64,000 nt of DNA from Paracidovorax anthurii (GTDB taxonomy: Bacteria; Pseudomonadota; Gammaproteobacteria; Burkholderiales; Burkholderiaceae_C): contig NZ_QLTA01000003.1 in NCBI RefSeq assembly GCF_003269065.1, positions 1-64,000 of the forward strand. The letters run 5' to 3'. Under the pieces are notes generated by a model. That model worked only from the letters and a program-made list of their open reading frames with translations, had not been told where the DNA came from and did not search any database. A program made the translations under genes and the position numbers. Shown in pieces: positions 5,612-51,269 of the stretch (its first letter is position 1; each line of letters begins with the position of its first letter).

Positions 5612-5666
5612 TCCGGCGGATCGCCACCCTGGCGCCCCGGCTTCCGCGCCGGGGCGGTGGCGGGCC

Positions 5667-6791
5667 TCAGCGGCGGAACTTGCCGTCGGTGCCGATGATG
5701 GACAGGTCGGCGAAGTCGAGGCCCGTGTGGTCCTCGGGGCTGAAGTTGACCTCCAGGCCGCCGATGTCAAATTTCTGGATGCCTTCGAGCGCGGCCTGCA
5801 GGCGTTCCCGCGTGGGCTTGGGGCCCGCGCGGCGCAGGCCTTCGACCAGCACCTTGGCGGCCGCGAGGCCCTCCAGCATGGCGGGGCTGACTTCCTTGCC
5901 CTGGGCCTTGGCCAGCTCATGCGCCTCGCGCACCAGCGGGAAGTTCGTGGCCCGCTCGTTGGGGAACACCTGGGTGACGATCACGCCCCGGCCGTTGGTG
6001 CCCAGGCTCTTGGCGAAGCCCGAGGAGGCATTGTTGGAGAGCGTGATGAGCTGCGCGCCCGAGCCGGCGGCGCGGAACGCCGCATAGCCTTCGGCCGTGG
6101 CGGCGCCCGAGGCGACCATGAGCACGGCCTGCGCCTGGGACTGCACCACCTTGGGGGCGATGGCGGTGAAGTCGGGCTTGGCGCGATCGAAGCGCTCCTG
6201 CAGCACGGGCTTGAGTTTCGCGGCCTCGAAGCCCTTGAGCGCGCCGGCCAGGCCGTCGGCCCCGAAGCTGTCGTCGGTGATCACCACGGCGACGCGGGTG
6301 ATGCCCATCGATGCCAGGTGGGAGATGGCTTTCTCGGCCTCGCGCTGGTAGGTGGCGCGCACGTTGAAGATGTGCTTGCGCACGGGGCGGTGCAGCACCA
6401 TCGCGCCCGTGGACGGGCCCACGAGGGGCACGCCGTACTTGTCGAGCAGCGGAATGAGGCCTTCCGTGTGGGGCGTGCCGCGCGTGAGGAAGAGCGCGAG
6501 CACGTTCTGCTCTTCGACGAGCTTGCGGGCATTGGCGAGCGTCTGCGCGGGCTCGAACTTGTCGTCCAGCGAGACCAGTTCCACCTTCTGCCCGTGGATG
6601 CCGCCCCGCGCGTTCACCGCCTGCAGGTACAGCCGGGCGCCTTCGGTGGTCTCCTGCACGCCCGCCGCGACGGGGCCGGTGAAGCCCGCGGTCTGCCCGA
6701 TGAGAAGCTGCGCCTGCGCGAGGGGCGCGGCGAGGAGGGTGGCGGCCGACAGTGCCAGGGCCGCGCCGGCTTGGCGCCAGGAAAGGGTCAT
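5667..6791 (-). CDS. ABC transporter substrate-binding protein (LivJ-like)
   Basis: A 374-residue periplasmic binding protein of the branched-chain amino acid type (Peripla_BP_6). The signal peptide ends at about APLAQA/QLLIGQTAGFTGP. The QTAGFTGPVAAGVQETTEGARLY start and the region NARKLVEEQNVLALFLTRGTPHTEG resemble LivJ-like receptors for amino acids, amides or aromatic acids. CTGGAGAACAGAC before the ATG supplies the ribosome-binding site. No permease or ATPase genes are adjacent, so it is an orphan receptor that may borrow transport components encoded elsewhere. The ligand is unknown. Confidence 0.88.
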   Translation of the reverse strand: MTLSWRQAGAALALSAATLLAAPLAQAQLLIGQTAGFTGPVAAGVQETTEGARLYLQAVNARGGIHGQKVELVSLDDKFEPAQTLANARKLVEEQNVLALFLTRGTPHTEGLIPLLDKYGVPLVGPSTGAMVLHRPVRKHIFNVRATYQREAEKAISHLASMGITRVAVVITDDSFGADGLAGALKGFEAAKLKPVLQERFDRAKPDFTAIAPKVVQSQAQAVLMVASGAATAEGYAAFRAAGSGAQLITLSNNASSGFAKSLGTNGRGVIVTQVFPNERATNFPLVREAHELAKAQGKEVSPAMLEGLAAAKVLVEGLRRAGPKPTRERLQAALEGIQKFDIGGLEVNFSPEDHTGLDFADLSIIGTDGKFRR

Positions 6792-42701: not shown

Positions 42702-43814
42702 TCAGGCGCCGCTGGCGGCATCCACCGGATCGATGTCGATGCGCGCCGCGCCCGCCTGCTGCGTGATCGCGATGCGCACCGGCAGGCCCCGCGGAATCAG
42801 CTCGGCGTGCGTGCGCGTGTGCGGCGTGATCTCCGTGGCGGTGTAGGCGGCGCGGCGCCCGCTGCGCCACACGGCCAGCGCGAGCGGCAGCATCCACTGG
42901 TCGGCCAGGTGCGGCCCCACCGCGCCGCTGCCGCGCTGGAAGGCCCGGACCTCTTCGGCCAGGGTGCGCGCCACCTGCTCGGCGGGGATGCCGCGCGCGC
43001 CCAGCGCGCAGAACACCTCGGTCACCTCGCCGTGGTCCAGCATGGCCAGCAGGGCGTTGCCCGGCCCCTCGTTCTGCCGCGCGGGCGCGGTGCGCAGCAC
43101 GTCCTGCCGGCCGGCGTCCCAGCCCAGGTGGCGCCGCAGGGCCTCCAGCTCGCGCTGTGCGACGCTGCGCGCCAGCCCGGGGACCACGGCCTCGGCCCAG
43201 GCCTGCCGGCAGGGGCCGCGCTCCAGCAGGTCGAAGGGCGCGAGCCCGGCGGCGGCGGGCCCGATGGTGGCCTGCACCTCGCCGCCGCCCGCGGGGTGGA
43301 AGCCCCGCCGCCGCAGCGCCAGCTCCAGCCCCGCGCCCAGGCGCCGCACCAGCGGCGCGAAGGCCAGTGCGAGGAAGTCGAAGGGCGGCGCCATCGGGTT
43401 GTGCGTGCCGCCCGTGAGCTGCACGCGGCTGGGCGCCTGCGCCAGCATCAGCGCGGGCAGCACGGTCTGCAGCACCAGCATGCAACTGCCCGCGCCCGAG
43501 ATCGGGAAGCGGTATTCGCCCGGCCGCACGGCGCCGGGCGTGAAGCGCAGCGCCTGCGATCCCGGCTCGGCGCCCTCGGCCTGCCCGCCGCAGACGTCCA
43601 CGGCCGCGTGCACGCACGCGAGGTGCTGGCGCATGAGCCCGGGCTTGGGCCGCCCGGCGCGGATGCGGTCGATCCGCAGGGGGCGGCCCGTCACCATGGC
43701 CAGCGCGAGGCCGGTGCGCAGGATCTGGCCGCCGCCCTCGCCGTGCGAGCCGTCGAGGACGAGGGGAGGTGAGAGAGGGGTCGGAGAAAGCACGGTCAGT
43801 AAAGGTCGATCCAT
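42702..43814 (-). CDS. rtcA: RNA 3'-terminal phosphate cyclase
   Basis: A 370-residue RtcA, which converts RNA 3'-phosphates to 2',3'-cyclic phosphates using ATP. The family start [29 protein letters not shown] and [17 protein letters not shown] are intact, the insert domain lies in the middle, and a His-rich segment [19 protein letters not shown] near the C-terminus holds the probable nucleophilic His. The ATG at 43814 is the start nearest the conserved N-terminus. Last gene of the RNA-repair operon, after RlaP, RtcB, a Cys-rich protein and slipin. Confidence 0.93.
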
Positions 43815-43878: not shown

Positions 43879-44715
43879 TCAGCCCCCCGCGCCGTCCGCG
43901 AACCGCAGCACCGTGTCGTGCAGCAGCGCATCCAGCGCGCCGTGCCCGGGTGCGGGCAGCGCCTGCACGGGCTCGGCCGCGTTGCGGGCCAGCTCGGCCT
44001 CGATGAAGGCATGGATGCCGGGCCAGCGCGGGCTGGTGGCGGCTTCTCCGGCGCGCATCTTCACCTCCAGCAGGGCGTTGATCTCGGCGATCAGCGCCGC
44101 ATCGCGCGTGGCGTCCAGCGTCTGCTGCGCCAGCGCGGCGAAGCGCATGGGCGGCACGCCCGGCAGGCTGCGGACCCAGCGCGCCGCCAGCAGCGGGCGC
44201 AGCACGTAGAGGTACTTCTTGTAGCGCACCTCCTCGGCCTGCAGGTGCTCGCGGAAGTTCTTCTTCGCCATGGAGGCGTAGTGGTGCCAGACCTTGGCGT
44301 TGGAGAACACCTGCGCGGCCAGCGCGCGAAAGCGCGCCATGGTGCCGGCCTCCTCGCGGTACACGATGGGCGAGCACAGCCATTCCAGCAGCGTGGGGTT
44401 GGACTCGCGCATCAGCCCCAGCGCCTTGCGCAGGTCCCAGCCGTTGATGTCCAGGTCGCCGCTGATGGGCAGCTCGATCACGTCCCGGCCGGGCACCACG
44501 GTGAGATACCACGGCAGCCGGTGTACGTAGATGAAGCGCACGTCGTAGTCGCTGTCGGGCGAGGCGAAGCCCCAGCCGCGGCTGCCCGATTCGCAGGCGA
44601 AGAGCACGGTCACGCCGTGCGTGGCCTCGATGGCGCGCAGGTGCTGCATCACCTGCGCGCGCATGTGCGGCTCGACCGGATGGGCCGACCGCAGGAGTTC
44701 TTCGGGTTGTTGCAT
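43879..44715 (-). CDS. RlaP-type RNA-repair nucleotidyltransferase
   Basis: A 278-residue protein of the polymerase-beta-like nucleotidyltransferase fold found with RNA ligases (RlaP/YcgL-like, COG3541). The active site is CESGSRGWGFASPDSDYDVRFIYV, with the GS motif and the two metal-binding aspartates, followed by the helical domain EWLCSPIVYREE and KNFREHLQAEEVRYKKYLYVLRPLLAARW. It probably adds or repairs nucleotides at broken RNA ends before ligation. It lies between rtcB and rtcA in one operon; the 80-bp gap to rtcB holds an R1 repeat. Confidence 0.88.
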   Translation of the reverse strand: MQQPEELLRSAHPVEPHMRAQVMQHLRAIEATHGVTVLFACESGSRGWGFASPDSDYDVRFIYVHRLPWYLTVVPGRDVIELPISGDLDINGWDLRKALGLMRESNPTLLEWLCSPIVYREEAGTMARFRALAAQVFSNAKVWHHYASMAKKNFREHLQAEEVRYKKYLYVLRPLLAARWVRSLPGVPPMRFAALAQQTLDATRDAALIAEINALLEVKMRAGEAATSPRWPGIHAFIEAELARNAAEPVQALPAPGHGALDALLHDTVLRFADGAGG

Positions 44716-44795: not shown

Positions 44796-46043
44796 TCAGC
44801 CCTTCACGCACACCACCTGCTTGAGCGTGTGCACCACTTCCACCAGGTCCGTCTGCGCCTCCATCACGGCATCGATGTCCTTGTAGGCCATCGGGATCTC
44901 GTCGATCACGTCGGCGTCCTTGCGGCATTCCACGCCTTCGGTGGCGGCGATCTGGTCGGCCACGGTGTAGAGCTTCCGGGCCTTGGTGCGACTCATCCTG
45001 CGGCCCGCGCCGTGGCTGCAGCTCATGAAGCTCTCGGGGTTGCCCTTGCCGCGCACGATGTAGCTCTTGGCGCCCATGCTGCCGGGGATGATGCCCAGCT
45101 CGCCGGCCCGGGCGCTCACCGCGCCCTTGCGGGTCACGAGCACGTCCTCGCCGAAGTGCGTCTCGCGCTGCACGTAGTTGTGGTGGCAGTTCACCGCCTC
45201 CACGTGCGCCTCGAAGGGCTTGCCGATCACCTGGCGCGCGGCCGCCACCACGCGCTGCATCATCACCTCGCGGTTGGCGCGCGCGAACTTCTGCGCCCAG
45301 CCCACGGCGCGCACGTAGTCGCCGAAATAGCGGGCGCCCTCCTCGAAGTAGGCCAGGTCCTTGTCGGGCAGGTTGCGCTGGTGCAGCTCGGCGTCCTTCC
45401 GGGCCAGCTCGATGAAGTGCGTGCCGATCGCGTTGCCCACGCCGCGCGAGCCGGAGTGCAGCATGAACCACACGGCGCCCGCCTCGTCCAGGCACACCTC
45501 GATGAAGTGGTTGCCGGTGCCCAGCGTGCCCAGGTGCTTGTGGTGGTTGGTCCGGGCCAGGTGCGGGTAGTCCTCGCAGATCCGGTCGAACTCGTCCTTC
45601 AGCCCGGCCCAGGCGCGGTCGGTTTCGTCGGGCGGGGTCTCCCACGCGCCCTTGTCGCGGCCCATGCGCCGCGGGTTGCTGCCGTGCGGCACGGCCTTCT
45701 CGATGGCCGAGCGCAGCGGCCCCAGGTTGTCGGGCAGATCGTTCGCGTGCAGCGTGGTCTTGCAGGCCATCATGCCGCAGCCGATGTCCACGCCCACCGC
45801 GGCCGGGATGATGGCCTTGAAGGTCGGGATCACCGAGCCCACGGTGGCGCCGATGCCGTAGTGCACGTCGGGCATGGCCGCGACGTGCCGGAAGACGATG
45901 GGCAGGCGCGCGGCGTTCTCCAGTTGCTGGCGCGCCTCGTCCTCGACGGGCACGCCTTGCGTCCACATCTTCACGGGCACGCCGTCCTCGACGGGGTGGA
46001 GCTGGTAGGAGGCGGTGGAAGGGGGGGTCTTGTGGTCGTTCAT
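44796..46043 (-). CDS. rtcB: RNA-splicing ligase RtcB
   Basis: A 415-residue GTP/Mn-dependent ligase joining 2',3'-cyclic phosphate (or 3'-phosphate) and 5'-OH RNA ends. Metal ligands are in DIGCGMMACK (Asp86, Cys89), GTGNHFIEV and the NCHHNYV block; the guanylylated His344 lies in SCSHGAGRRMSRTKA. The length equals the RtcB form of the E. coli rtcBA operon. It is the core enzyme of the operon, and the absence of archease nearby is normal for bacteria. Confidence 0.96.
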   Translation of the reverse strand: MNDHKTPPSTASYQLHPVEDGVPVKMWTQGVPVEDEARQQLENAARLPIVFRHVAAMPDVHYGIGATVGSVIPTFKAIIPAAVGVDIGCGMMACKTTLHANDLPDNLGPLRSAIEKAVPHGSNPRRMGRDKGAWETPPDETDRAWAGLKDEFDRICEDYPHLARTNHHKHLGTLGTGNHFIEVCLDEAGAVWFMLHSGSRGVGNAIGTHFIELARKDAELHQRNLPDKDLAYFEEGARYFGDYVRAVGWAQKFARANREVMMQRVVAAARQVIGKPFEAHVEAVNCHHNYVQRETHFGEDVLVTRKGAVSARAGELGIIPGSMGAKSYIVRGKGNPESFMSCSHGAGRRMSRTKARKLYTVADQIAATEGVECRKDADVIDEIPMAYKDIDAVMEAQTDLVEVVHTLKQVVCVKG

Positions 46044-46099
46044 GGTTCAGGAATTCTTGAGGGGTTGCGGGGTGGGCGCCATGCCGGTGCGGGACCGGC

Positions 46100-46951
46100 T
46101 CATCGCGCCATCGTGTCGAATACGGCGCCGATGCGCTCGTTCAGCGTGGAGCGGCAGTCGCATTCCTGCGTGCCGGGCGGCAGCCAGCCGCCGGTGGGGC
46201 AGCGGTCCATCATCTGCAGCAGCCTGGCGGTGAACCGGTCCCGGTGCGTGGGCGCGGTCAGCCAGTGTTCCACCGCCTCGCGGTAGCGGGGACGGTCCTT
46301 CGAGAACGGGCCGCCCACCTGGTGGCCGTTCAGCACGAAGCCCCAGTACGAGGCGTCCACGTAGTGCAGGGCCGACGAGTTGCTCTCGCACGCGAGCCAG
46401 TGCTCCAGCAGCGGCGCGAGGTCCACGCCGGCGTGGTCCCACATCAGCAGGACCGTGAAGGCGTCTTCTTTCCGGAAGACGCCCTGGTCCGGCTCGGCCC
46501 ACTGCTCCAGCCCCAGCGCGAAATGCGCGAGCGCGACGTCCTGTAGCGCCTGGCGCTCGCGGCCGTTGAAGGCGCCGGGCTCACAGCGGCCCACGCGGTC
46601 GAGGGATAGCTCGGTCGAATGGTGCAGCTGCGCGCCCTGCGCCAGCAGTTCCAGCAGCCGGGGCAGCAGGTACTTGATCTCGTCCGCGGGCTGCACGGTG
46701 CTCTTCACGCTGTCGTTGTACTGGTAGAAGTGCCGCGCGGTGAGCGTGCGCAGGGGCAGCCGGCGCATCTCTCGCTCCAGGGCCGCATCCATGCAGCAGG
46801 CGGTGCACACGTCCAGCAGCCCCGCGGGCGCGCGGCAGGCACCGAACACGTGGTAGGCGGCCTCGATGGACGCGTCCAGCGCGGCCTGGAGGACCGGCAG
46901 CGATGGTGCGCGCGCGGCTTCGGGCGTGGTCGTTATCGTTGTTGTCTTCAT
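46100..46951 (-). CDS. Unrecognised Cys-rich protein of the RNA-repair operon
   Basis: A 283-residue soluble protein with a strong ribosome-binding site (AGGAGG, 9 bases before the ATG at 46951). I do not recognise a family. Features include a Thr-rich N-terminus, the Cys cluster DVCTACCMD, an Asp/Trp-rich region VLLMWDHAGVDLAPLLEHWLACES, ASYWGFVLNGHQVGG, and a C-terminal CPTGGWLPPGTQECDCRS that could bind zinc with the first cluster. It sits between slipin and rtcB with 50-56 bp gaps, so it is surely co-expressed with RNA repair. A role in sensing, tethering or processing RNA is possible but unproven. Confidence 0.75.
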   Translation of the reverse strand: MKTTTITTTPEAARAPSLPVLQAALDASIEAAYHVFGACRAPAGLLDVCTACCMDAALEREMRRLPLRTLTARHFYQYNDSVKSTVQPADEIKYLLPRLLELLAQGAQLHHSTELSLDRVGRCEPGAFNGRERQALQDVALAHFALGLEQWAEPDQGVFRKEDAFTVLLMWDHAGVDLAPLLEHWLACESNSSALHYVDASYWGFVLNGHQVGGPFSKDRPRYREAVEHWLTAPTHRDRFTARLLQMMDRCPTGGWLPPGTQECDCRSTLNERIGAVFDTMAR

Positions 46952-47001
46952 GGTCGTATTCCTCCTGGGCGCCAGGCCGCGGGGCGGCCTGGCGCGGTCC
47001 G

Positions 47002-48135
47002 TCAGCGCATTTTCACGAGCCCGTTCAGCACCTGGTCCAGGCCGCCGAAGACCGAGATCTTGTCGATGCGTTCGGCCACGCGCTCCAGGGTTTCCAGCTC
47101 TTTCATGCGCAGGGCCACGGAGTTGTCCTCCATGACCTTCGCGGTGTTGAGCAGCGAGCGGGTCGCCGCCGTTTCCTCGCGGCGGCGGATCACGTTGGCC
47201 TGGGCCTGCTTTTCCGCCTGCACCACCTGGGTCAGGATGGCCTTCATGTCGCCCGGCAGCACGATGTCCTTCACGCCCGCGCTCTCCAGCCGCAGGCCGT
47301 AGGGCTGCAGCCTGGTGGCCAGGTGCGTGTTCACCACCTCGTCGATCGCCGTCTTGTCTTCCAGCAACTCGTCGAGCGTGCGGGTGCCCACGGCGGCGCG
47401 CAGGGCGAACTGCAGTTCGCGGTACAGGTGCTCGGCGGGCTTGGGCAGCTGGCGGTGGGCCAGCAGCACGTCCACGTAGCGCCAGGTGGCGCTCAGGTTG
47501 ATGCGCAGGCCGACCTTGTCGCGCGTCATGATGTCCTGGCCCGACACTTCCAGCGTCTGCAGGCGCAGGTCCACCAGTTCCGCGGCGACGTGGCGGCCGT
47601 ACTTCCAGAACGCATGCGTGCCCGCGCCCAGCAGCCGCTCGACCTTGCCGTCGATGGTGAGCAGGGCGCACATCGCGTCCGGCACCTGCACCTGCAGCAC
47701 GCCGTTCAGGCCCGCCACGGGCTTGCTGCGCAGCTGCGTCTGCACCAGCCGCGCCGCGAGGGCGGCCAGCACGTCCACGCCCTGCGCGAGGTCCACGACC
47801 TGCACGTCCACGTCCACCAGTCTTTTCCAATAAAGGCGCCGGGTGCCCGGGGGCAGGATCTCCACCAGCACGCCGTTCTCGCTGCGCAGGCCGGCCTGGG
47901 TCTCGGACAGCTCCACGCGCACGAACTCCCGTGCCACCACCTCGGGCTCGCAGGCCATCAGGTAGTCGGCCAGGCCGTGCGTGAACGCCGGCTGCTCCAG
48001 GGCGAAGGTCTCCACGCGCAGCTGGTCGGTGCCCGCGAAGAGCCAGTGCGCGCCGCTGTGCAGCACGCGCTCGAAATCGCCGTTGCGCAGCAGCAGGGCG
48101 CGTTCGTTCTTCTTGATGCGTTGGATCGTCAGCAT
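47002..48135 (-). CDS. Slipin (SPFH/band-7 protein) of the RNA-repair operon
   Basis: A 377-residue protein with AAGGAAG as ribosome-binding site. The SPFH core is at about residues 150-300, with GTHAFWKYGRHVAAELVDLRLQTLEVSGQDIMTRDKVGLRINLSATWRY and LRLESAGVKDIVLPGDMKAIL, followed by an Ala/Glu/Arg-rich coiled coil. There is also an N-terminal region of about 130 residues that looks like a degenerate SPFH repeat (HSGAHWLFAGTDQLRVETF against GAGTHAFWKYGRHVAAELVD). No clear membrane hairpin. Slipins are known neighbours of rtcB; they may scaffold repair or protect the ribosome. Confidence 0.88.
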   Translation of the reverse strand: MLTIQRIKKNERALLLRNGDFERVLHSGAHWLFAGTDQLRVETFALEQPAFTHGLADYLMACEPEVVAREFVRVELSETQAGLRSENGVLVEILPPGTRRLYWKRLVDVDVQVVDLAQGVDVLAALAARLVQTQLRSKPVAGLNGVLQVQVPDAMCALLTIDGKVERLLGAGTHAFWKYGRHVAAELVDLRLQTLEVSGQDIMTRDKVGLRINLSATWRYVDVLLAHRQLPKPAEHLYRELQFALRAAVGTRTLDELLEDKTAIDEVVNTHLATRLQPYGLRLESAGVKDIVLPGDMKAILTQVVQAEKQAQANVIRRREETAATRSLLNTAKVMEDNSVALRMKELETLERVAERIDKISVFGGLDQVLNGLVKMR

Positions 48136-48424
48136 GGTTTTCTTCCTTTTCTTCTTTCTTGCGTGTCGCCACGGGGCCTTCGGGCCCCGGATTCCAAAGG
48201 GTGCCGTTACAGCGGTGGCGGGCTGCCAGGGGGCACGGCGCGGGCGTCGCAGTGCGCCGTGCCGTCCGCCCGGGCGGGGCGGCGGCGTGGCTGGCTGCGC
48301 GCGCGGGCCGTGCCCGGGTCTGGCACGAACCGCCACCGGCTGACGGGCGAAGCGCCTGGGCGGTGGGTACCGCTGCGGCTGCTTCTCCCGCGTTCGGCGG
48401 GTGGTCTTTCGACCGTTGACGAAT
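48136..48424 (-). other. Spacer between the tRNA-like RNAs and slipin
   Basis: About 290 bp, probably transcribed as part of the operon leader. It contains a very stable inverted repeat with an UUCG-type tetraloop on the plus strand (GGGGCC-TTCG-GGCCCC, about 48172-48187), read as a CGAA loop in the operon direction, and long GC-rich tracts. No protein-coding frame could be supported. Confidence 0.5.
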
Positions 48425-48442
48425 CCCGGCGGTGAGGCCGGG
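48425..48442 (-). other. Hairpin directly after the second tRNA-like structure
   Basis: CCCGGC / GCCGGG with a 6-nt loop, extended by one T-A pair. There is no T-tract. It could be a processing signal or attenuator separating the tRNA-like RNAs from the slipin message. Confidence 0.5.
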
Positions 48443-48445
48443 AGG

Positions 48446-48516
48446 GTTTCCGGCAGGAATCGAACCTGCGCCAGGCCTTGGATGAGAAGGCTGCTCTTCC
48501 TCTGAGCTACAGAAGT
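48446..48516 (-). ncRNA. tRNA-like structure 2: full cloverleaf with CAU anticodon
   Basis: The 71 nt read on the minus strand fold as a canonical cloverleaf: TA at 8-9, D arm GCTC-AGAGGAA-GAGC, anticodon arm GCCTT-CTCATCC-AAGGC, variable loop CTGGC, T arm GCAGG-TTCGATT-CCTGC. Anticodon is CAU. Several points separate it from a real tRNA: position 37 is C instead of a purine, the two outer acceptor pairs (1-72 and 2-71) cannot form, and no CCA follows. It lies in a protein operon behind a sigma-54 promoter. It is best read as a tRNA mimic or decoy in the RNA-repair operon. Confidence 0.8.
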
Positions 48517-48569
48517 GGCGATTCCGGACTCGAACCGGACGCCCCGGAGGGCGGCTCCTTGCATCGCCA
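48516..48569 (-). ncRNA. tRNA-like structure 1: acceptor/T-arm minihelix
   Basis: Reading the minus strand, TGGCGAT pairs perfectly with ATCGCCA (7-bp acceptor stem), and directly inside the 3' strand lies a perfect T arm TCCGG-TTCGAGT-CCGGA. The D and anticodon arms are replaced by 23 nt that can form one short hairpin (GGAG-CCGCC-CTCC). This is the upper half of a tRNA, as in tmRNA or Y-RNA-type mimics. It abuts the second tRNA-like structure with no spacer. No CCA is encoded. Confidence 0.75.
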
Positions 48570-48719
48570 TGCCCGAGACACCGCGGCGGGCGGCATGCGG
48601 GGCATCGACGGCCAGGCCCCGGGAGGGGCCGGCCGGACACCCGGCACCGGAGGGGCTGGCGTTCCGCCACAACCCCGAGCCTGTGAGCGTCGCCGCTGGT
48701 CTCTGACGGATAAAGCTTC

Positions 48720-48733
48720 GCGAGATGCGTGCC
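48720..48733 (-). promoter_or_regulatory. Sigma-54 promoter of the tRNA-like/slipin/rtcBA operon
   Basis: On the minus strand CTGGCACGCATCTCGCGAAG has GG at 48733-48732 and GC at 48721-48720 with exactly 10 nt between them, the invariant -24/-12 spacing. The -24 box TGGCACG is perfect; the -12 box is TCGCG instead of TTGCA. Transcription would begin near 48708, upstream of both tRNA-like structures. This fits activation by RtcR, a sigma-54 activator encoded divergently. Confidence 0.75.
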
Positions 48734-48832
48734 AGCGTGTCGCGGAGGCTGCCGGATTTTCATAAACCATTGATTTGGAAAAGAATTCCCCGTTAGGTGC
48801 ACGAATCTGTCAACTCGCTTTGGCTGCTGGAA

Positions 48833-48848
48833 TTAGATAGCTATCTAA
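48833..48848. promoter_or_regulatory. 16-bp perfect palindrome, candidate RtcR upstream activating site
   Basis: TTAGATAGCTATCTAA lies 100 bp upstream of the sigma-54 -24 element and 18 bp before the rtcR start, in an AT-rich island. Position and symmetry suit a dimeric activator site for the operon that could also autoregulate rtcR. Binding by RtcR is inferred. Confidence 0.5.
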
Positions 48849-48866
48849 AAATATAGAAAATGGGAT

Positions 48867-50474
48867 ATGGCAAAAAACAAGGTGGTCATCGGTTTCATCG
48901 GCACCCAGCTGGATGCCGGCAGGGGTGCGGGGCGCTGGGAGAAGTGGCGCCCCACGGTCTCGCTCGCGCAGCACGAGGATTTCGCCGTGCACCGCATGGA
49001 GCTGCTCTACACCCCCGCCCATCTGGCGCTGGCGAACCAGGTGAAGGCCGACATCGCGGCCGTCTCCCCGGAAACCGAGGTGCGCCTCGTGGGCCTCGGC
49101 ATCCAAGACCCCTGGGATTTCGGCGAGGTGTACGGCGCGCTGTTCGACTGGATCCAGTCCTACCGCTTCCGCATGGAGCGCGAGGAGTACTGGGTGCACA
49201 TCACCACGGGCACGCACGTGGCGCAGATCTGCCTGTTCCTGCTGGTGGAGTCGCGCCGCATTCCCGGCGTGCTGGTGCAGACCGCGCCCCCGAAGCGCCA
49301 GCACGCGGGCGACCCCGGCAGCCATGCGCTCATCGACCTGGACCTCTCGCGCTACGACGCGCTGGCCCAACGCTTCCAGGCGGAGCGGCGCGATGCGGTG
49401 GACTTCCTCAAGAGCGGCATCGCCACGCGCAACGCGCGCTTCAACGCGCTCATCGAGGAGGTGGAGCACGTGGCGGTGCGCTCGCGCGCGCCCATCCTCT
49501 TCACCGGCCCGACGGGCGCGGGCAAGTCGCATCTGGCGCGGCGCATGTACGAGCTGAAGAAGGCGCGCCACCAGGTGGAGGGCGCGTTCGTCGAGGTCAA
49601 CTGCGCCACGCTGCACGGCGACGGCGCCGCCTCCACGCTGTTCGGGCACCGCAAGGGCGCATTCACCGGCGCGGCGGCCGAGCGCGCCGGCCTGCTGCGC
49701 ACGGCGCACGGCGGCGTGCTGTTCCTCGACGAGATCGGCGAGCTGGGCCTGGACGAGCAGGCCATGCTGCTGAAAGCCGTGGAGGAAAAGCGTTTCTACC
49801 CCCTGGGCAGCGACCGCGAGGTGGAGAGCGATTTCCAGCTCATCGCGGGCACCAACCGCGACCTGCGCGTGGAGGTGGCGGGCGGGCGTTTCCGCGAGGA
49901 CCTGTTCGCGCGCATCAACCTCTGGAGCTACCAGCTGCCCGGGCTGGCGCAGCGCCCCGAGGACATCGAGCCCAACGTGGACCACCTGCTCGCGCGCGCC
50001 GGGCAGGAGCTGGGCCGCGCGGTGCGATTGTCGGCCGAGGCCCGGGCGGCGTACCTGGGCTATGCGCAGTCGCCGCAGGCGCTCTGGAGCGGCAACTTCC
50101 GCGACCTGTCGGCCAGCGTGGTGCGGCTGGCCACCCTGGCCGAGGGCGGGCGCATCGGCCTGCCGCTGGTGGAGGCCGAGATGGCCCGGCTGCGGTGGCT
50201 GTGGGAGCCCGCGCAGGCGCCGCGGCGGCAGGAGGCGGACGGCCTGCCGGAGCTGGAGGCCCTGCTGGGGACGGCGCAGTTCGAGGCGCTGGACCTCTTC
50301 GACCGGCTGCAACTCGCGGCCGTGGTGCGTGTGTGCCGGCAGTCGCGCAGCCTCTCGGATGCCGGGCGGCAGCTGTTCCAGGCCTCGCGCATGCAGCGCA
50401 CCGCCGTCAACGACGCGGACCGGCTGCGCAAGTACCTGGGCCGGTTCGGCCTGGTGTGGGAGCGGCTGACGTGA
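48867..50474 (+). CDS. rtcR: RtcR, sigma-54-dependent activator of RNA repair
   Basis: A 535-residue regulator. The N-terminal ~190 residues are the RtcR ligand-sensing domain of the CARF type (KVVIGFIGTQLDAG, VHITTGTHVAQICLFLL), which in characterised systems responds to RNA ends with cyclic phosphate. The AAA+ domain follows: Walker A GPTGAGKS (214-221), the sigma-54-contacting GAFTGA loop (264-269), Walker B GGVLFLDEIGEL and the arginine-finger region. A C-terminal DNA-binding segment closes the protein. Divergent from the tRNA-like/slipin/rtcB operon. The start has no strong ribosome-binding site, implying low expression. Confidence 0.94.
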   Translation: MAKNKVVIGFIGTQLDAGRGAGRWEKWRPTVSLAQHEDFAVHRMELLYTPAHLALANQVKADIAAVSPETEVRLVGLGIQDPWDFGEVYGALFDWIQSYRFRMEREEYWVHITTGTHVAQICLFLLVESRRIPGVLVQTAPPKRQHAGDPGSHALIDLDLSRYDALAQRFQAERRDAVDFLKSGIATRNARFNALIEEVEHVAVRSRAPILFTGPTGAGKSHLARRMYELKKARHQVEGAFVEVNCATLHGDGAASTLFGHRKGAFTGAAAERAGLLRTAHGGVLFLDEIGELGLDEQAMLLKAVEEKRFYPLGSDREVESDFQLIAGTNRDLRVEVAGGRFREDLFARINLWSYQLPGLAQRPEDIEPNVDHLLARAGQELGRAVRLSAEARAAYLGYAQSPQALWSGNFRDLSASVVRLATLAEGGRIGLPLVEAEMARLRWLWEPAQAPRRQEADGLPELEALLGTAQFEALDLFDRLQLAAVVRVCRQSRSLSDAGRQLFQASRMQRTAVNDADRLRKYLGRFGLVWERLT

Positions 50475-50615
50475 TCGCCGCCGCGGCACCGCAGGCCTGG
50501 CCCGCAAGCGACCTTCAGGGGGCGTTTGCCCGGACCGTAGAAGAGGCCTTTCCCCAGCCGGAGAATCCTGCGGGCGGTAGCATCGTTGCACCACAGTGCC
50601 AGCTGACCAGAAGCC

Positions 50616-51269
50616 ATGCCCATCACCGAAGGTCGTGCGAAATCCGGGGCGCGCTCTCCTCTGGGTCGCCCTACCGCGCAACGGGCGCAAGAGTTGAGGC
50701 AAACCATCATCGGGGCCGCGTCGGCGCTCATGCTGCAGGACGGCTACGACGGCACCAGCATCGACGCGATCGCGGCCGCTGCCGGTGTCACCAAGCGGAC
50801 CATCTACACACGGTTCGAATCGAAGGAAAACCTGCTCCGTGAAGTGCTGACGACCGCAGCGCTGCCCGCATTGCGGCTCGAACCCGAGTTTCCATCCAGC
50901 GCCAGCATCGAGGAGAAACTCGTGCTGATCGGGATGGAAATGAATGCCGCCCTCCTGCATCCCGATATGCAGCGCTGGCTCCGGTTCGCCATCGGCGGCA
51001 TTGCGCAGCGCCCCGAACTGGCCCCGTTCGTGCACGCATTGATCGAGCAGTACCTGGCTCTGCTGGAGCGGCTTCTGGCGCCGGTCCTCGCCAGCGGAGC
51101 GCTGCGTGCCGACGACCTGGCTACCGCGGTGAAGGTTTTCGCGACCTTGATTTCGTCGCGGGCGCACAACCTCGCGACGTTTTCCCTGCCTCCGGGGTCT
51201 CTGGAAGAGCAGGCGCATTTCATACGGAAAGCCGTGGCCTTGTTCCTCGCTGGCTGCACCCGGGCATGA
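50616..51269 (+). CDS. TetR/AcrR-family regulator
   Basis: A 217-residue regulator with an N-terminal TetR helix-turn-helix, IIGAASALMLQDGYDGTSIDAIAAAAGVTKRTIYTRFESKENLLREVL, and an all-helical ligand and dimerisation domain of the TetR_C type. The first 20 residues are a basic, flexible tail. It lies 141 bp behind rtcR and is transcribed on its own. No obvious target gene is adjacent; the palindrome at 51443-51470 downstream is a candidate operator but could belong to another regulator. Confidence 0.9.
   Translation: MPITEGRAKSGARSPLGRPTAQRAQELRQTIIGAASALMLQDGYDGTSIDAIAAAAGVTKRTIYTRFESKENLLREVLTTAALPALRLEPEFPSSASIEEKLVLIGMEMNAALLHPDMQRWLRFAIGGIAQRPELAPFVHALIEQYLALLERLLAPVLASGALRADDLATAVKVFATLISSRAHNLATFSLPPGSLEEQAHFIRKAVALFLAGCTRA

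Follow-up and report, generated by a model that had tools for sequence, protein, structure and literature searches.

Tandem tRNA-like modules in the structured leaders of slipin-containing RNA repair operons

Two modules in the leader of a Paracidovorax anthurii repair operon

In Paracidovorax anthurii, the leader of an RNA repair operon contains two abutting tRNA-like modules, here called B and C, which lie on the minus strand at 48445-48569 of a 64,000-nucleotide stretch (contig NZ_QLTA01000003.1, positions 1 to 64,000; hereafter the window). The minus-strand genes follow in the order slipin, a protein without family match, RtcB, RlaP and RtcA, with RtcR divergent to them (Table 1), so that all the parts by which an RtcR-controlled RNA repair operon is recognized (RtcR, RtcB, RtcA and a -24/-12 site) are present. 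RtcR and slipin are separated by 731 bases, in which the -24/-12 site is followed by the structured leader. An earlier note on this DNA, made from the letters alone, had placed the elements behind such a promoter in a sigma-54-driven operon, and both the site before the elements and their membership in an RtcR/sigma-54 operon are supported by the present analysis; the structured leader reaches further than that note had described, from about 48706 to 48202 (bounds approximate).

The tandem itself, as claimed in that note, is real. C is called tRNA-Met(CAU) by ARAGORN (48444-48516), and in a covariance search of the region it matches the full Rfam tRNA model at 48445-48516 with 39.9 bits against a cut-off of 29, being the lowest-scoring of the 45 Rfam tRNA matches in its own genome. 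A T-arm rule (five perfect pairs, G-U included, and the loop TTC[AG]AN[CT]) finds exactly two sites on both strands of the whole window, starting at 48539 and 48469 of the minus strand, and base 48516 is common to B and C. The peculiarities attributed to C, namely C37, two unpaired outer acceptor positions and the lack of CCA, are borne out in the sequence, which also gives a 5-base-pair (bp) acceptor and a 7-nucleotide (nt) anticodon loop with U33. B had been described as a minihelix of acceptor and T-arm. Both parts are there, but they are not the only ones: the single-sequence fold gives an acceptor, a tiny hairpin, CGCCC-TCCG-GGGCG and the T-arm, and several distant families have B as a complete cloverleaf, in some of them with NCCA. 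In the window B is without CCA.

Table 1. Features of the RNA repair locus in the window
Feature	Position	Strand	Basis or remark
Sigma-54 (-24/-12) promoter-like site TGGCACGCATCTCGC	48720..48734	-	like site in relatives' leaders
Leader domain A, conserved stem GGTGC (48648-48644) / GCATGCC (48598-48592)	48573..48706 (bounds approximate)	-	RNAalifold, 18 leaders
Element B: tRNA-like acceptor stem, small hairpins, T-arm	48516..48569	-	T-arm rule, folds, comparison
Element C: cloverleaf, 5-bp acceptor, CAU in anticodon position, without CCA	48445..48516	-	Rfam, ARAGORN, covariation
Hairpin directly 3' of C	48423..48442 (position approximate)	-	RNAalifold, 18 leaders
Rod-like structured domain E, ends just upstream of slipin	48202..48344 (bounds approximate)	-	RNAalifold
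Slipin / SPFH (Band_7) protein, three N-terminal beta-repeats	47002..48135	-	
Protein without Pfam or NCBIfam match (the earlier note's Cys-rich protein)	46100..46900 (start open-ended)	-	
RtcB RNA ligase	44796..46043	-	
RlaP nucleotidyltransferase (RNA repair pathway pol-beta family)	43879..44715	-	
RtcA RNA 3'-phosphate cyclase	42702..43811 (start approximate)	-	
RtcR, sigma-54 activator, divergent to slipin operon	48867..50474	+	

A family of leaders: occurrence, covariation and form

Relatives were collected mainly via slipin, from 35 of 399 family genomes (the window's own included) and from the best 80 of 269 named loci. Among 82 leaders (not thinned, the window included), 69 have a strict pair, defined as T-arms 60-90 nt apart upstream of slipin, and 79 have at least one T-arm; of the 13 that fail the pair rule, ten have one T-arm and three have none, two of these three being cut by contig ends. 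At L086 the T-arms of its tRNA array were excluded from the leader count. Of 5450 control leaders made by shuffling, none has the pair and 22 have any T-arm at all, and a pair is likewise absent from all 392 1-kb windows downstream in the relatives.

In a phylum sample, 23 of 398 genomes have this slipin (the window locus included), with at least one T-arm in 22 of the 23 loci and at least two in 19; the lone locus without a T-arm has about 125 bases upstream. A fresh class-level test on 369 genomes found slipin at 21 loci; 17 of these had not been sampled before, and each of the 17 has at least one perfect T-arm. Six have a perfect pair, and 14 have a pair if one mismatch is allowed, a count that includes L195 (46-nt spacing) and L193 (pair 1.3 kb upstream). 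The number of modules per leader varies from one to three, full or reduced, and is usually two abutting ones, with three T-arms in a row at L170 and L203; in most loci the last module ends about 190 to 550 nt before slipin. A Bacillota record annotated as Subdoligranulum variabile has slipin, RtcB and RlaP, the GCGTATGCCG motif and one strict T-arm in the leader, together with a second T-arm recognized by eye. A scan with the R1 model, which is independent of slipin, gave 31 loci among the matches listed, 15 of them with slipin within 1.5 kb and the other 16 with ordinary tRNA calls. No slipin match at E 1e-10 was obtained among 50,697 phage records, and one IMG/VR contig has a slipin match with just 186 bases upstream. 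Closer to the window, the slipin of Paracidovorax konjaci (NZ_FOMQ01000007) is 90% identical to that of P. anthurii. Among 16 further genomes of this genus, only G004 and G009 have a strong leader match, and the operon therefore seems to be patchily kept or transferred within it.

For the analysis of covariation the 69 tandems were thinned by similarity to 54, L007, which is almost the same as L045, being taken out manually. Over the B T-arm and the C cloverleaf, 93.2% of cells are paired, and 172 double-sided changes are observed against 46.9 in shuffled data and 17-34 with the partners slid, so that the check for compensatory changes suggested in the earlier note leaves the elements standing. 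The D stem is invariant and the T-loops are nearly so; pairing is weakest in C's outer acceptor, at 55.8% of cells, a part that is to some extent misaligned. The contiguous acceptor of C measures 3-5 bp in 47 of the 54 tandems, less than 3 bp in five and 6-7 bp in two, and in 45 of the 54 a CCA lies within four bases of C's T stem, as if buried in the acceptor. The ends of both modules were compared in 70 sequences, comprising the 54 tandems and 16 hand-picked from phylum and plasmid loci; pairs occur as well in L156, L157, L158, L160 and L170, which this set does not include. At least six of seven acceptor pairs are found for B in 66 of the 70, the partner being taken as the best 7-mer within 75 nt, so that single rows may be chance, and NCCA after 7 nt is found in 33 of 70 for B and in two of 70 for C. 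A pairing of B's CCA with the 5' TGG of C, noticed by eye only, was rejected in favour of C's own acceptor, because in sequences without a CCA in B the 5' strand of C matches its own 3' strand.

The anticodon arm of C behaves differently from the D/T body. It is a standard 17-nt arm in 30 of 54 tandems, carries a GNRA-type tetraloop in 19 and takes another form in five; U33 is kept in 27 of the 30 standard arms, while the anticodon varies among the 7-nt loops. At L124 (about 5660-5732) this arm is a 25-nt extended hairpin. Over 96 close pairs, which share sequences and so are not independent, divergence is 0.23 in the C anticodon arm, 0.19 in the flanks and 0.07 in the D/T body, and between some close pairs, e.g., L092 and L097, the whole arm differs. 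Diversifying selection on the anticodon loop was considered and dropped; since the divergence of the arm is close to the flank rate, only a loss of constraint is claimed. Nor were the arms copied from array tRNAs in any of 11 loci compared, the best match being 14/17. The loop thus varies in sequence, length and loop type, which argues for selection on the tRNA body and not on decoding. A working tRNA is recognized by a 7-bp acceptor with a free CCA and, family-wide, by a 7-nt loop with U33, and C, taken over the family, falls short on both points. Judged by comparison of sequences, decoding is not the function of the family.

RNAalifold on 18 leaders, mostly from Acidovorax and its near kin, predicts domain A, the modules B and C, hairpins and, next to slipin, a rod, with double-sided changes in 58 of 144 predicted pairs, the long-range part being less certain. 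Upstream of the first T-arm, at a distance of 15-140 nt, the motif GYRTRCCG occurs in 43 of 45 RtcR-type tandems, in ten of the 24 others and in one of 69 control windows. On this comparative evidence the leader is a long structured RNA carrying tRNA-like modules, conserved across many bacteria.

Locus types and known systems

Within the stretch 230-760 nt upstream of slipin, the only part searched, a sigma-54-like site is present in 45 of 50 relatives that have RtcR and in none of 27 that lack it. Where 5 kb on both sides of slipin could be inspected (60 loci), RtcB is present in 56, RtcR in 42, RtcA in 33, RlaP in 22, an HNH gene in 17 and the strict tandem in 53; 16 of the 18 loci without RtcR have the HNH gene, identified as HNH_5 in two array-type loci tested. 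RtcR is missing from the stretch examined in 24 of the 69 strict tandems, some of these stretches being cut by contig ends, and such loci often show a tRNA array called by ARAGORN, the HNH gene, the tandem, slipin and RtcB, in this order. Slipin, a protein of stomatin type, accompanies the modules with differing regulators and differing sets of repair genes. Arrays of tRNAs and an HNH-like gene were observed upstream of slipin at L070, L072, L073, L077, L085, L093, L095, L096 and L111, with RtcB in each and, by the strict rule, with the tandem in all except L073; L111 has 19 ARAGORN tRNA calls upstream besides C. The protein at 46100-46900 (minus strand), between slipin and RtcB, gave no match in Pfam or NCBIfam, and a relative of it is present in 13 of the 60 loci.

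A slipin-RlaP operon with a sigma-54-like site also matches 1624 of 5426 complete Escherichia coli genomes (in 1617 of them with at least 80% of the query covered), and its leader likewise matches 1624. In E. coli and Citrobacter (L179, L180 and L184) slipin-RlaP lies downstream of rluF/yjbD, without RtcB in the stretches seen; RtcR adjoins it in Citrobacter and not in the E. coli stretches seen. At the rtcBA locus of K-12, where rtcB and rtcR are 188 bases apart, slipin is absent, as is the E. coli leader hairpin string.

The closest precedent comes from Pelobacter carbinolicus, in which a 'mutant tRNA', Pcar_R0061, was reported in 2012 between rtcR and genes for a stomatin-like protein, rtcA and rtcB; in the section describing it, the shortened acceptor buries the CCA, U33 is lost, reciprocal changes keep the cloverleaf, and a role as substrate or guide is proposed (PMC3543383). 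Compared by that description, it resembles the window in having a tRNA-like gene with a shortened acceptor between divergent rtcR and a stomatin-like gene, and it differs from the present family in being one module in one species, treated there as a mutated tRNA-Asn. A tandem, a family, variation of the loop and array-type loci go unmentioned in the same section (PMC3543383), and no tandem or family-level description was found in the open-licence literature searched. The earlier suggestion that the arrangement is undescribed therefore does not hold for a single mutant tRNA and still holds, as far as that section goes, for the tandem and the family. This work extends one earlier single-species note to a family, whose members are tRNA-mimic RNAs of RNA repair operons and not Y RNAs.

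YrlA, an RNA with a tRNA-like domain, is described as being encoded inside the RtcR-controlled RNA repair operon rsr-yrlBA-rtcBA (PMC7790460). The likeness to the present modules lies in a tRNA-like RNA encoded in an RtcR-controlled repair operon, the partner gene here being slipin and not Rsr. The YrlA model (RF02553) gave no match at E up to 1 in the window at 46000-51000; in relatives it scored 25.2-34 bits in seven of 15 loci, below its cut-off of 69, and ordinary tandem tRNAs used as control scored 26.5-30.1 bits in four of 15 loci. Membership in YrlA was dropped because the control tandem tRNAs score alike. No Ro60/Rsr (TROVE) protein was found among the seven window proteins scanned with Pfam, a scan confined to the window.

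The array-type loci of Burkholderiales recall another system. In Anabaena, the passages on TrcR report that it represses a spare trn tRNA array and that without it rtcB, the slipin gene alr0740 and the HNH gene all8564 rise more than 8-fold (PMC10272220). The same parts stand side by side in the array-type loci, whereas in Anabaena they are, by their gene names, at separate places, and those passages mention no tRNA mimic. Elsewhere, viral tRNA-like structures and mimics derived from long non-coding RNAs are given as cases of a tRNA elbow in RNAs that are not tRNAs, in other organisms and contexts (PMC4810234).

Possible roles of the mimics

What the forms have in common is a T-arm, mostly with an acceptor or a D-arm; a cleavable anticodon loop, RtcR, RtcB and RlaP are not common to all of them. 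The explanation towards which we lean, with somewhat less than even confidence, is that the modules are non-decoding tRNA mimics, made together with the repair proteins and acting in trans with slipin and the repair enzymes. It is preferred over a sensor for RtcR because the forms share the T-arm and slipin is constant, and not a cleavable loop or RtcR. By this scheme, broken tRNAs would switch the operon on, through RtcR and sigma-54 here and through something else in the array-type loci, and the tRNA machinery would recognize B and C and perhaps trim both out of the transcript; the tRNA elbow is known to be recognized by tRNA-binding factors, among them RNase P and the enzymes of 3' processing (PMC4810234). 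The freed mimics would then work alongside slipin and the repair enzymes. Most likely they would be either an RNA partner through which a slipin oligomer holds or presents enzymes that handle tRNA, or uncleavable competitors soaking up tRNA-binding toxins and nucleases. The scheme would resemble that of the Y RNAs serving Ro60/Rsr in the rsr-yrlBA-rtcBA operon. A relation of the elements to slipin, raised in the earlier note, is likely, and slipin is probably the partner of the mimics.

Several observations weigh against this explanation or the evidence behind it. Most loci were collected by way of slipin, which by itself accounts for part of its constancy; the tRNAs of every genome are matched by the R1 scan as well, of which only the retrieved loci were inspected, and with a cut-off of E 1e-15 the scan overlooked G009, a genome of the same genus that has the tandem. 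The leader of L100 is full-length and yet without a T-arm. The excess of acceptor pairs in B is modest (mean 6.29 of 7 against 5.54 in shuffled strands). When C of the window is folded alone, its minimum-energy structure is not a cloverleaf, the 5' acceptor strand pairing with the D-loop, and the centroid of the single-sequence fold keeps only its anticodon arm and T-arm; the fold energy of 48440-48575 is ordinary for its composition (z -0.18). The cloverleaf is accordingly assigned on the Rfam covariance model, ARAGORN and the comparison with relatives, not on energy. In three E. coli leaders and one of Citrobacter the likeness is confined to one T-arm-like hairpin, whose stem has 4 bp and which fails the strict rule, and the predicted folds of the two E. 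coli/Citrobacter leaders that were folded have no acceptor; a by-eye reading of this element as an acceptor-T-arm minihelix was abandoned on these folds, and the hairpin may be a reduced relative, or the likeness may be due to chance. Finally, in the loci examined the modules occupy the coding strand of the leader, an arrangement that a role in cis would explain equally well.

Such a role in cis is the close rival, because the modules lie in the leader throughout and the C of the window can fold otherwise; it seems to us a serious possibility, if a somewhat less probable one. The mimics would stay in the messenger RNA and control expression of the slipin operon, for instance if RtcB, RlaP, slipin or a tRNA-processing enzyme bound or cut them, with broken tRNAs titrating that protein or with cutting setting the stability of the messenger. 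This agrees with their constant strand, in the loci examined, within a structured leader of 500-600 nt that has a rod directly before slipin, and with the presence of modules both with and without a sigma-54-like site, but the number and type of modules vary (one to three, full or reduced) and the distance of the last module from slipin, in most loci about 190 to 550 nt, varies more than would be expected of a translational operator. The earlier note had also raised substrates that report damage to RtcR and decoys for anticodon nucleases. A bait or sensor of this kind, in which C is cut in the anticodon loop and its 5' fragment activates RtcR, would suit the fast divergence of the C arms, but that divergence is near the flank rate and does not support diversifying selection. 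Both the reporting and the cleavable-bait readings are weakened by the tandems without RtcR in the stretch and by the C modules with GNRA-type tetraloops, which makes them quite unlikely, while a decoy that is not cleaved is conceivable.

The remaining rivals concern the origin and the nature of the modules. Decay from the tRNA arrays of relatives might be suggested by the array-type loci, with up to 19 further tRNA calls upstream of the tandem (L111), but the pairs are strongly conserved across families, the D-arm stem is invariant and the T-loops nearly so, tandem and array coexist in one locus, and at the 11 array loci with standard C arms that were compared those arms are not copies of array tRNAs of the same stretch; we regard this origin as very improbable. 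Slightly less probable again is a specialized yet charged, translating tRNA. It would account for the 7-nt loop with U33 in the window, for U33 in most standard arms and for the full cloverleaf with NCCA that B forms in some distant families, but it is opposed by the short acceptor, by the rarity of NCCA in its normal place in C, by an arm of another length in 24 of 54 tandems and by the lack of a normal anticodon arm in the B of the window's lineage. The earlier judgement that C is unlikely to be a working tRNA is thus upheld and made firmer by the short acceptor, the missing free CCA and the variable anticodon arm.

The vault particle consists of the major vault protein with vault RNA. A bolder version of the trans explanation, which we consider unlikely, would make slipin a miniature vault protein, its three repeats being of vault type, and the tandem mimics its vault RNA, in a bacterial vault-like ribonucleoprotein assembled on demand when tRNAs are damaged and housing or guiding RtcB and RlaP. 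The predicted layout of slipin, with three beta-repeats, an SPFH domain, a long cap-like helix and no evident membrane anchor, is what prompts the comparison. Among the matches listed, the major vault protein aligns from residue 3-4 to residue 335-361 of the slipin model in four of its ten rows, whereas the other six cover the model only from about residue 138 on, and stomatins rank first.

A conserved tRNA mimic produced alongside the repair proteins would fill a gap in the account of how RNA repair enzymes find or hold broken tRNAs, and would give slipins an RNA partner that can be tested. Since a slipin-RlaP operon with a reduced leader is present in many E. coli genomes, part of the question is testable in that species. 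Such a mimic would also link the Y RNAs of rsr operons, the spare tRNA arrays and the mutant tRNA of Pelobacter.
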